A DNA stretch of 64,000 nucleotides, taken from contig JAIOSF010000021.1 in the NCBI GenBank assembly GCA_021107755.1, positions 1-64,000 of the forward strand, given 5' to 3'. The notes beneath the pieces were generated by a model that was not told the origin of the DNA, ran no database searches, and was given only the letters and a program-made list of their open reading frames with translations. The translations under genes and the position numbers were made by a program. The stretch comes from Arcobacteraceae bacterium (GTDB lineage Bacteria; Campylobacterota; Campylobacteria; Campylobacterales; Arcobacteraceae). How positions within the stretch are numbered: position 1 is the stretch's first letter; each line of letters begins with the position of its first letter. This document shows positions 35,490-64,000 of the stretch, in pieces.

Positions 35490-35592
35490 CTGCTTCTCTT
35501 AGACCTTTACAACTGCTTTTAAGGGCAACTCCCCAGGGTAGGAATACAGCAAGGAACTTTTAACTGTAGTGTGTTTAGGTATCTGGGAGGAG
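35490..35592 (+). ncRNA. ffs: Signal recognition particle RNA (4.5S-type)
   Basis: This RNA binds Ffh and targets membrane-protein ribosomes. The universally conserved tip is clear at about 35534-35551: CAGG, then GTA, the GGAA tetraloop and TAC (GTA pairs with TAC), then AGCA. This is the symmetric and asymmetric internal-loop arrangement of bacterial SRP RNA. It is flanked by CTCC and GGAA pairing, and the outer strands (AGACCT at about 35501, AGGTATCTGGGAGG at about 35577) close an elongated hairpin. A TATATT -10 at 35480-35485 supports the 5' end. Both ends are approximate to a few bases. It lies in the 347-base gap between nuoN and mscS, which has no coding sequence. Confidence 0.82.
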
Positions 35593-61163: not shown

Positions 61164-62155
61164 TGCTTAAAATAGCAATAGATGCAATGGGTGGGGACAT
61201 AGGTCCAGCACCCATTATAGATGGCTTAATTTTAGCACTGAAAAAAGATAGACATTTTAATGCTATTTTAGTAGGTAAAAAAGAAGAGCTTCTACCTTTA
61301 ATTCCTCAAAAATTTGATAATCGTATAACAATACATGATACTCATGATGTTATAAGTATGCATGATCATGCTACAGATGCTCTTAAAAGAAAAGAGAGTA
61401 GTGCTTATGTTGCTATTGATTTAGTAAAACAAGGGCTTGCTGATGCATATGTAAGTGCAGGACATAGTGGTGCTTCTATGAGTTTAGCAACACTTAAAAT
61501 AGGAAGAATTAAAGGTGTAAGCAGACCGGCTATTGCTACATTAATGCCTACAGTTAGTGGTACAACTCTTGTATTAGATGTAGGTGCAAATGTAGATTGT
61601 GATGCTAAAAACCTTTTAGAGTTTGGTATTATGGGAAGAATATATGCTGAGGATGTTCTTGGAGTAGATAATCCTTTAGTTGGACTATTAAGTAATGGTG
61701 AAGAAGAATCAAAAGGGAATGAAGTAACAAAGAGTGCATTTAAACTTTTAGAAAAAACACCAAATTTTGTTGGAAATGTTGAAGGTAACGATATTTTTAA
61801 CGGCAATGTTGATGTTGTAATTTGTGATGGTTTTGTTGGAAATATTCTTCTTAAAACAGCTGAAGGTGTAGCAGATACTATTGGTAAAATTATTAAAGAC
61901 AATTTAAGACGCTCATTAGTATCTATTACGGGGGCTGTTCTAATGAGAAAAGTTTTTAAGAAATTAAAACTTAAAGTTGATTATGCAGAATATGGTGGGG
62001 CTCCTTTAATTGGGGTAAAAGCACCTGTTATTATAGCTCATGGAAAATCAAATTCAAAAGCAATTCAAAATGCAATATTTCAGGCTATATCTGCAGCTGA
62101 CTCGAATCTAAATATTCATATTGAAGAAAAACTAAGTCATATTAAGGATCACTAG
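61163..62155 (+). CDS. plsX: Phosphate acyltransferase PlsX
   Basis: It makes acyl-phosphate from acyl-ACP to start phospholipid synthesis with PlsY. It has 330 residues, with the conserved N terminus [38 protein letters not shown], and [19 protein letters not shown] near 220. The start overlaps rpmF by one base and the end overlaps fabH by one base, so translation is coupled. Confidence 0.97.
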
Positions 62156-63117
62156 TGATATACGCTTCGTTTAAATCAATTGGTGCTTATATACCTACAG
62201 AAGTTCGTTCAAATCAATGGTTTATTGATAGAATGGATACAAATGATGAGTGGATTACAAAGCGAACAGGTATAAAAGAGCGAAGAATTGCTTCAAGTGA
62301 AGAAGAGACAAGTGATCTTGGTGCAAAGGCAGCAAAAATAGCTATGAATCGAGCTGGAATTTCAAGTGCAGATATTGATTTAATTATTTGTGCGACAATC
62401 AGTCCAGATTATATGTGTATGCCTTCAACGGCTTGTTTAATAGCCGAGAAACTAGATAGACGAGATGTAATGGCACTTGATATAAGTGCTGCTTGTACAG
62501 GATTTATCTATGCATTAAGTGTTGCAAAAGCATTTATAGAATCAGGAATGAAAAAAAATGTCTTGATAATTGGTGCAGAAAAGCTTAGTAATATTGTTGA
62601 TTATACAGATAGAACAACTTGTATGTTATTTGGTGATGGTGCAGGAGCAGCAATTATAAGTGCAACCCAAAATAAAGATGAAGCAATAGTAGATATTCAG
62701 TGTAGTGCGGATGGAAGCCAAAAAGATCTACTTTTAACACCAAGTGTTCAAAGTAGCGAAGCCTCTTTTATGCAAATGAAGGGGAATGAAACTTTTAAAA
62801 TAGCAGTACGAACATTGACTTCAGATGTACAAAAAATTATGGAAAAGAATAGTTATAAAAATGAAGATATAGATCTTTTTATACCACACCAAGCAAATTA
62901 TAGAATTATAAAAGCTGTTGGTGATGCATTAAAATTTGAAGATAAACAAAAAGTATTAACAGTTGAAAAATATGGAAATACTTCTTCTGCTTCAATCCCT
63001 ATGGCTATTAATGAGTGTTTCGAAGATGGTCGACTTGTAAAAGGGAAAACAATGCTTCTTGATGCCTTTGGTGGTGGGTTAACTTGGGGTTCAGCAATTA
63101 TTAAATTTAATGGTTAA
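62155..63117 (+). CDS. fabH: Beta-ketoacyl-ACP synthase III
   Basis: It condenses acetyl-CoA with malonyl-ACP to start fatty-acid chains. It has 320 residues. The nucleophile Cys114 is in DISAACTGFIYAL; the His of FIPHQANYRII and the Asn of YGNTSSASIP complete the triad. The start codon is GTG at 62155. It is the last gene of the DUF177-rpmF-plsX-fabH unit; no clear terminator is seen before the riboswitch that begins about 20 bases later. Confidence 0.97.
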   Translation: MIYASFKSIGAYIPTEVRSNQWFIDRMDTNDEWITKRTGIKERRIASSEEETSDLGAKAAKIAMNRAGISSADIDLIICATISPDYMCMPSTACLIAEKLDRRDVMALDISAACTGFIYALSVAKAFIESGMKKNVLIIGAEKLSNIVDYTDRTTCMLFGDGAGAAIISATQNKDEAIVDIQCSADGSQKDLLLTPSVQSSEASFMQMKGNETFKIAVRTLTSDVQKIMEKNSYKNEDIDLFIPHQANYRIIKAVGDALKFEDKQKVLTVEKYGNTSSASIPMAINECFEDGRLVKGKTMLLDAFGGGLTWGSAIIKFNG

Positions 63118-63134: not shown

Positions 63135-63247
63135 TATTGTTACAATGATACAAATAGCCAAACTTACTGTGAAGTAAGGACGGAAAGCTACGGATCTTGA
63201 TTTAAAGATGGCCGAGTTGCAACTTACAATACAACTCTCAATTTTTT
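63135..63247 (+). promoter_or_regulatory. Cyclic-di-GMP-I (GEMM) riboswitch with overlapping terminator
   Basis: The aptamer core is clear: CCAAAC then a hairpin CTTAC-TGTGA-AGTAAG (63162-63178), then GGACGGAAAGCTACGG (63178-63193; class consensus GGACGCAAAGCYACGG), a second hairpin around GATCTT-GATTT-AAAGAT, and the 3' strand GGCCGAGTTGC (63210-63220; consensus AGCCGGGUUGCC). GAGTTG (63214-63219) is also the 5' arm of a hairpin with CAACTC (63232-63237), followed by TTTTTT at 63242-63247. Because terminator formation takes the aptamer's 3' strand, ligand binding should prevent termination: predicted ON switch. The 5' boundary is approximate. It controls the two small genes downstream. Confidence 0.85.
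63214..63247 (+). terminator. Riboswitch-controlled terminator
   Basis: The hairpin GAGTTG / CAACTC (6 bp, 12-base loop) with a six-T tract ends 34 bases before the first small gene. The stem is short but it is the only terminator-like structure between the aptamer and the coding region, and its 5' arm is part of the aptamer, the usual design of a transcription-attenuating riboswitch. Confidence 0.65.
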
Positions 63248-63280: not shown

Positions 63281-63529
63281 ATGACAAAGAATCACAAAAG
63301 TGCTAGAATAAATTTTAAAATGATTTTGATTGTAACATTAATCCTAGCAGGTTTTATTTTATATTGGTATAAAACTAAAGATTCTTTAGATGAAACTTAT
63401 AAAATTAAAGCTGCAGGCGGTGATTTTGGATATAAGCAAACTTTTATCAATCGAACTGGGAAAGATGTTGAAGAGAAAAAAATTAATCTATCTGATGATT
63501 ACTGGACGGGTGGAAAGTTTGGCTTTTAA
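63281..63529 (+). CDS. Small membrane-anchored protein, C-terminal YWTGGKFGF, 82 aa
   Basis: I do not recognise the family. Basic N terminus (MTKNHKSARINFK), one membrane helix at about 14-33 (MILIVTLILAGFILYWY), then an extracytoplasmic tail of about 50 residues. The last 29 residues (from TFINRTG to YWTGGKFGF) match the end of the next protein, with the pattern T-[FY]-I-N-x-T-G-x-x-V-x-x-x-K-I-x-L-S-x-x-Y-W-x-G-G-K-F-x-F. No cysteines. AGGACAAGAA precedes the ATG. Expression is predicted to rise with c-di-GMP through the riboswitch, so a surface or biofilm-related role is plausible but only inferred. Confidence 0.8.
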   Translation: MTKNHKSARINFKMILIVTLILAGFILYWYKTKDSLDETYKIKAAGGDFGYKQTFINRTGKDVEEKKINLSDDYWTGGKFGF

Positions 63530-63549
63530 TTTATAATTAGGAGTATATT

Positions 63550-63762
63550 ATGAATAAAAAAATAACATCAATCGTTGCAATTATAGCAGCATTAAGTGTA
63601 ATAGTAATAACAAATATAGACAGTATGTCAAAGACAAGTGATGAAAAATATGTGATTAAAAAATGGGAATCAACATATATAAACTCAACAGGTCAAAAAG
63701 TAAAAGATAATAAAATACATTTATCAAATAGTTACTGGGAAGGTGGAAAGTTTAGTTTTTAA
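63550..63762 (+). CDS. Small membrane-anchored or secreted paralogue, C-terminal YWEGGKFSF, 70 aa
   Basis: A shorter paralogue of the preceding protein: hydrophobic N-terminal segment at about 5-22 (ITSIVAIIAALSVIVITN; anchor or uncleaved signal), a short spacer, then the shared C-terminal module TYINSTGQKV...IHLSNSYWEGGKFSF. The tandem duplication with a diverged N terminus but conserved C terminus shows that the C-terminal module is the functional part. AGGAGTATATT precedes the ATG, and the gap to the first gene is 20 bases, so both share the riboswitch. The stop overlaps the clpA stop region on the other strand by four bases. Confidence 0.8.
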   Translation: MNKKITSIVAIIAALSVIVITNIDSMSKTSDEKYVIKKWESTYINSTGQKVKDNKIHLSNSYWEGGKFSF

Positions 63763-64000
63763 CTATAGTTAAAAATAAACTCCTCTTTTTTGTAATCAAT
63801 AGTTACTTCCCCACCGTCTTTTAAAGAACCAAATAGTATCTCATCAGTAAGTGGTGTCTTGATATGTTCTGTTATAACTCTTTGTAGCGGTCTTGCACCC
63901 ATGAGTTTGTCATAACCTTTATTTGCTAAAGCTTTTTTTGCACTGTTTGTAATATTTATAGTAATATTTTTATCAGCTAAATTAGCTTCTAAATCTTTGA
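63759..64000 (-). CDS. clpA: ATP-dependent Clp protease ATP-binding subunit ClpA, 3' end
   Basis: Only the last about 80 residues lie in the window. GYDKLMGARPLQRVI is the D2 small-domain signature of Clp/Hsp100 ATPases, and EHIKTPLTDEILFGSLKDGGEVTIDY is the typical ClpA end (ClpB and ClpC end differently). ClpA unfolds substrates for ClpP, with ClpS as adaptor. The stop (TAA at 63761-63759) overlaps the end of the small YW-GGKF gene on the + strand, so the two transcripts converge with no spacer. Confidence 0.88.
   Translation of the reverse strand, partial: KDLEANLADKNITINITNSAKKALANKGYDKLMGARPLQRVITEHIKTPLTDEILFGSLKDGGEVTIDYKKEEFIFNYS

Follow-up and report, generated by a model that had tools for sequence, protein, structure and literature searches.

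Small proteins of an undescribed family, with putative membrane anchors, lie behind a c-di-GMP-I riboswitch in Arcobacteraceae

Introduction

What are the two short open reading frames that stand in tandem near the end of a 64,000 nucleotide stretch of Arcobacteraceae DNA (the window), and what might the C terminus that they share recognise? The original prediction, made from the letters alone, took them for a new small-protein family with unrelated membrane-anchoring N termini, a common 29-residue C-terminal module and a GEMM riboswitch in front. Here we compare the two proteins, A and B, with each other, with related genomes and with known families, and consider what a tail of this kind would do in a membrane protein under c-di-GMP control.

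Results and Discussion

Layout of the locus

Both open reading frames exist as predicted, 20 nt apart and each preceded by a Shine-Dalgarno-like AGGA or AGGAG, and the riboswitch is real (Table 1). The stop codons of B and of the convergent clpA-type gene overlap by 4 nt (63759-63762), an arrangement also found in one related genome, G072 (locus L042), while in another, G074, the convergent gene downstream of the small gene is pyrE-type, not clpA-type. A consensus promoter scan gave only chance-level results, and TACAAT at 63141-63146 is a candidate -10 box only. Elsewhere on the plus strand of the window lies a bacterial small SRP RNA (RF00169, 50.3 bits, 35496-35592).

Table 1. Positions of the features discussed, numbered from the first letter of the window
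Feature	Coordinates	Strand	Description
fabH-type gene	62155..63117	+	Encodes, by inspection, a beta-ketoacyl-ACP synthase III; lies next to the cassette on its upstream side
c-di-GMP-I (GEMM-I) riboswitch aptamer	63147..63224	+	RF01051, 60.3 bits, E = 2.6e-9
Predicted expression platform	63214..63247	+	Predicted fold: GAGTTG of the aptamer 3' strand (63214-63219) can pair with CAACTC (63232-63237), followed by T6 (63242-63247)
Small protein A	63281..63529	+	82 aa; K/R-rich N terminus, TM at about 10-31, presumed periplasmic tail, C-terminal module
C-terminal module of A	63440..63526	+	TFINRTGKDVEEKKINLSDDYWTGGKFGF
Small protein B	63550..63762	+	70 aa; paralogue of A; Shine-Dalgarno AGGAG upstream
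C-terminal module of B	63673..63759	+	TYINSTGQKVKDNKIHLSNSYWEGGKFSF
clpA-type gene, 3' end	63759..63998	-	Convergent; ClpB_D2-small, E = 1.3e-22

A shared module at the C terminus

BLASTP aligns A with B over 74 aa (E = 3e-13), and nearly all of the similarity comes from the last 29 residues. Compared by itself, the module reaches a score of 100, where shuffles average 19, and none of 5000 shuffles scored as high. The transmembrane (TM) stretches compared by themselves show no significant similarity (733 of 5000 shuffles did as well), and the linker between anchor and module, "DE.Y.IK", is weakly similar (87 of 5000). The claim of unrelated N termini is therefore too strong, as the linker retains some likeness and in all four proteins compared, A, B and two orthologues, a TM anchor and an E.Y linker accompany the module. 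A and B are the only copies of the family in their own genome.

An alignment of the four proteins has 18 invariant columns, including E.Y, IN.TG, I.LS, YW and GKF. In the module codons every pairwise comparison shows 3-9 synonymous differences, with the third positions varying most. Conserved residues combined with synonymous codon differences across four proteins indicate that these are conserved genes and not chance open reading frames. As judged from the alignments, A and B are paralogues of an undescribed family in which the anchors evolve fast. Conservation of the module was said to end exactly at the C terminus, and this is so in three of the four members; the orthologue from G074 ends ...YWEGGKFK and has no final aromatic residue.

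Distribution of the family

A protein search of 104 Arcobacteraceae genomes found true homologues only in G074 and G072, which belong to the same genus as the window, and an independent scan of one genome per species, covering 84,980 species, matched the same two genomes (JAONGR010000001.1, Arcobacteraceae bacterium AH-541-O20, and JAGYNS010000031.1, MAG M55B150). The family thus occurs outside the window strain, in two other species, and in the genomes searched it is confined to one genus rather than spread across Campylobacterota. Samples of 399 genomes from the order and 397 from the phylum gave only weak matches that we judged to be chance. They included a response-regulator linker in G250 (E = 3e-4, the best of the 399 genomes), a short open reading frame in G546 that stops before any module, and a match in G011 to the N-terminal TM part only.

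In each of the three genomes with the cassette, the upstream neighbour is a fabH gene. This gene is also present in G073, a fourth genome of the genus, which has neither the riboswitch nor a protein match. No positional homologues follow fabH in sister genera, where the downstream genes differ.

No family in Pfam or NCBIfam was matched above its curated cut-off (best 15.7 bits against 25, DUF3386), PHROGs gave weak scores only, the PDB gave no convincing match, and the absence of matches in phages or plasmids led us to reject a viral, phage or plasmid origin. The family is real, narrowly distributed and undescribed, as the original prediction had supposed, and it is under a known kind of riboswitch. 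The narrow distribution and the lack of the cassette in G073 would also fit non-functional open reading frames whose conservation is a duplication relic or chance. This we regard as very improbable, since the frames are intact in three species with many synonymous changes, Shine-Dalgarno sites are present and a riboswitch stands in front in each of the three genomes.

Predicted topology of the small proteins

All four proteins have a 19-residue hydrophobic stretch after two to four K/R residues, followed by a polar tail of 47-55 residues. On the simplest reading they look like proteins with a single TM anchor in N-in/C-out orientation and a periplasmic tail, a topology that we infer from sequence. 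The AlphaFold model has a mean pLDDT of 54 and is confident for the TM helix only, leaving the tail unstructured at low confidence. We found no beta-barrel domain: the proteins are too short, and beyond the TM helix this low-confidence model has only an unstructured tail. Membership of the type IV or Flp pilins was considered and rejected, as by inspection the four sequences have no prepilin peptidase cleavage motif ahead of the hydrophobic stretch, and there was no Pfam match.

The hydrophobic N terminus could instead be a cleaved signal peptide, in which case the products would be secreted or surface peptides of the sessile state with roles in matrix, adhesion or antagonism. A part in matrix or adhesion would suit control by c-di-GMP, a structural or dosage role would suit the tandem copy in the window species, and in B, by inspection, no aromatic belt follows the hydrophobic stretch. 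The other three proteins, however, show by inspection an aromatic boundary (Y[WF]Y.T[KE]) just past the TM stretch and no A-x-A cleavage site, the pattern expected of an uncleaved anchor, and no secretion genes were seen nearby. We think secreted products improbable.

The riboswitch and its predicted switching

The window aptamer lies well within family RF01051, for which the gathering cut-off is 35 bits. On the sub-family model RF03167 (c-di-GMP-I-GGC, cut-off 59) the window copy falls just under the threshold at 58.4 bits, with the copies in G072 and G074 at 59.3 and 63.6. The window genome (G000), G072 and G074 each contain exactly one c-di-GMP-I riboswitch, and in each it is directly upstream of the small gene. 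The expectation that homologues always follow such a riboswitch is thus borne out in three of three genomes, by a protein search and an RNA-family search that are independent of each other.

The aptamer stops 56 nt short of the A start codon. Downstream of it, CAACTC can form a hairpin with GAGTTG in the 3' strand of the aptamer, a predicted terminator-like alternative to the aptamer; a complement with a T-run arose in 31 of 20000 shuffles of the leader. A generic terminator scan, in which loops are limited to 8, found none. Bound ligand would hold GAGTTG within the aptamer, which predicts an ON switch, that is, c-di-GMP turning the window genes on. In the leaders of G072 and G074 alternative pairs are possible, but without a T-run. 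A common platform mechanism for all 28 c-di-GMP-I riboswitches of the Arcobacteraceae was rejected: complementary strands are common under loose rules, but T-runs follow in few cases, and the ON prediction is therefore limited to the window copy.

The locus resembles known c-di-GMP-I regulons in its clear aptamer, its position directly upstream of genes and its alternative hairpin with a T-run, but differs in that the genes controlled form an undescribed family of small membrane proteins. A literature search found no paper linking c-di-GMP riboswitches to such proteins in Campylobacterota.

Resemblance of the C terminus to the outer-membrane beta-signal

The published consensus for the beta-signal of outer-membrane proteins (OMPs) ends in G-x-x-[aromatic/hydrophobic]-x-[aromatic/hydrophobic] (PMC10945584). 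For comparison we took the last ten residues of TonB-dependent receptors and BamA from the window genome and its relatives, and built a position matrix from 34 such ends, which are almost only TonB-receptor ends. Receptors of the window genome end, for example, in GRVFYMGLQYKF, PRAFYAGVKYSF and GRYYFAGMNVSF, and the small proteins end in DDYWTGGKFGF and NSYWEGGKFSF. With its last ten residues A reaches 7.2 on this matrix and B 11.3; the leave-one-out median of real ends is 15.8, and A exceeds 15% and B 18% of the 34 real ends. The best of 58 other protein ends in the window scores -0.5. Among 201 further C-terminal ends from all loci only one lies above A, that of a 230-aa protein ending SIGVVYKF, which is probably an outer-membrane protein itself; its length matches that of the probable OMP found behind a riboswitch in G051.

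The orthologues score lower on the same matrix, with a marginal 1.5 in G072 and a failing -19 in G074, the one that ends GGKFK. The last three residues are FGF, FSF and FDF in three members and KFK in the fourth. The three full-length ends have Gly at position -5 and Glu or Thr at -7, where the real beta-signals of this set are mostly hydrophobic. Loss of the last Phe in G074 may stem from the rearrangement by which its downstream neighbour is pyrE-type. The whole module gave no significant match to C-terminal domains of OMPs when searched as an HMM (best E = 0.31).

These comparisons of short peptides are suggestive of a tail that resembles the OMP beta-signal. They make the proposed recognition end plausible and more concrete, but the G074 orthologue is missing the terminal Phe. 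A signal of this kind cannot be the whole function, because residues well upstream (IN.TG, I.LS) show conservation equal to that of the end. Over their final ten residues A and B lie within the score range of Arcobacteraceae OMPs, the substrates of the BAM complex, but the small proteins differ from these in being 70-84 aa long with an inner-membrane-type anchor, which leaves no room for a beta-barrel.

Possible partners of the tail

As the best-supported model we tentatively propose that these are c-di-GMP-induced, membrane-tethered peptides with a tail that would engage a reader of beta-signals and so modulate outer-membrane assembly or envelope signalling. The locus would then be a cassette under c-di-GMP control that encodes one or two small, bitopic proteins of the inner membrane. 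At high c-di-GMP the folded aptamer would make its 3' strand unavailable for the terminator-like hairpin, allowing read-through into the small genes. The proteins would insert N-in/C-out and hold the tail in the periplasm, where its end would mimic the beta-signal (aromatic-aromatic-x-G-x-K-aromatic-x-F). The reader might be the assembly machine formed by BamA and BamD, or else an HtrA-type protease acting through its PDZ domain, as AlgW does with MucE, and outer-membrane assembly or envelope signalling would be modulated during the switch between sessile and motile states.

BamA is present in the window genome, and in the related Helicobacter pylori the BAM complex consists of BamA and BamD only (PMC5727368). 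The complex can be inhibited by beta-signal-type peptides (PMC10945584). In Pseudomonas aeruginosa the C-terminal WVF of MucE, a periplasmic protein, is a ligand of the PDZ domain of AlgW (PMC8545111). MucE, an activator of this HtrA protease, acts through an OMP-like C-terminal peptide with an aromatic-x-Phe end (PMC8545111), and A and B, which end in the same pattern, may do likewise. It differs from them in its tail, SVRDELRWVF, which in a comparison with the published decapeptide only has no evident similarity to the module past the last three residues, and in that one window-family orthologue has no aromatic end.

We rate another reading about as likely as a beta-signal reader, and it may well be correct without our considering it probable: that the module is a short tail for oligomerisation or for binding a partner peculiar to the genus, in the inner membrane or the periplasm, such as a chemoreceptor, a diguanylate cyclase or a part of a pilus or flagellar motor, and that the resemblance to OMPs is coincidental. 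The conserved residues span the whole tail (E.Y, IN.TG, I.LS) and not just the last ten positions, and the G074 orthologue does without the final Phe. Small membrane proteins often regulate larger membrane complexes, and behind other riboswitches in the Arcobacteraceae there are Flp-type pilin-like and flagellin-like proteins as well as other small membrane proteins. Against a genus-specific partner, few if any protein ends come above those of A and B on the beta-signal matrix, and besides fabH no candidate partner adjoins the gene in all three genomes.

Other small membrane proteins behind c-di-GMP-I riboswitches

Among the 28 c-di-GMP-I riboswitches in Arcobacteraceae the next gene belongs to the window family in 3 cases, to two other small membrane families in 4 and 6, and is Flp-pilin-like in 6; the others precede a flagellin-like gene, a probable outer-membrane protein and further genes. 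When 104 genomes were searched, all 4 that have the first of the two other families, A2 ("WSFxK"), had it immediately downstream of a c-di-GMP-I riboswitch, as did 6 of the 7 with the second, A3 ("two-helix KKEYHKxxL"). Both sets were first collected at riboswitches, so the independent evidence for the association is only the near-absence of copies elsewhere. They are like the window proteins in being short, hydrophobic and directly behind a c-di-GMP-I riboswitch, but have no evident similarity to them, with a hydrophobic C terminus or two helices and no such C-terminal module.

The A2 proteins have an NWSF.K-type motif and a C-terminal hydrophobic stretch, and come from three genera (L014, L036, L013 and L015, in G047, G051, G102 and G100). 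The A3 proteins, from genus g10 (L026, L028-L031, L120), have two hydrophobic helices and mostly end in KKEYHKxxL; in G057 (L122) the A3 gene has no detectable riboswitch. At six further loci (L016, L019, L034, L035, L037, L038) a riboswitch precedes a short hydrophobic protein (MLxFLKRRLKSEKGAMDK...) adjoining a type IV prepilin peptidase-like gene, suggesting that Flp/Tad-type pili in Arcobacteraceae are under riboswitch control. One region of G051 (C18:5383-5837; L017, L032, L040) has three c-di-GMP-I aptamers within 460 bp, of which one faces a flagellin-like gene and two in tandem face a secreted protein and a lipoprotein-like gene.

More speculatively, and in our view unlikely as a whole, an inner-membrane-tethered decoy beta-signal might let c-di-GMP directly tune the outer-membrane assembly machine or a beta-signal-sensing protease, in which case c-di-GMP would repeatedly act in Arcobacteraceae through small membrane proteins under riboswitch control.

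Conclusion

Riboswitches for c-di-GMP show what cells alter as they pass from a swimming to a sessile state or back. Three genomes of this genus each devote their sole c-di-GMP-I riboswitch to a small membrane protein that is undescribed, and in related genera the same riboswitch position is occupied by two other families of small membrane proteins. If the tail is truly a mimic of the beta-signal, it would offer a directly testable link from second-messenger signalling to the assembly of the outer membrane or the sensing of stress, both of them poorly known in this phylum.
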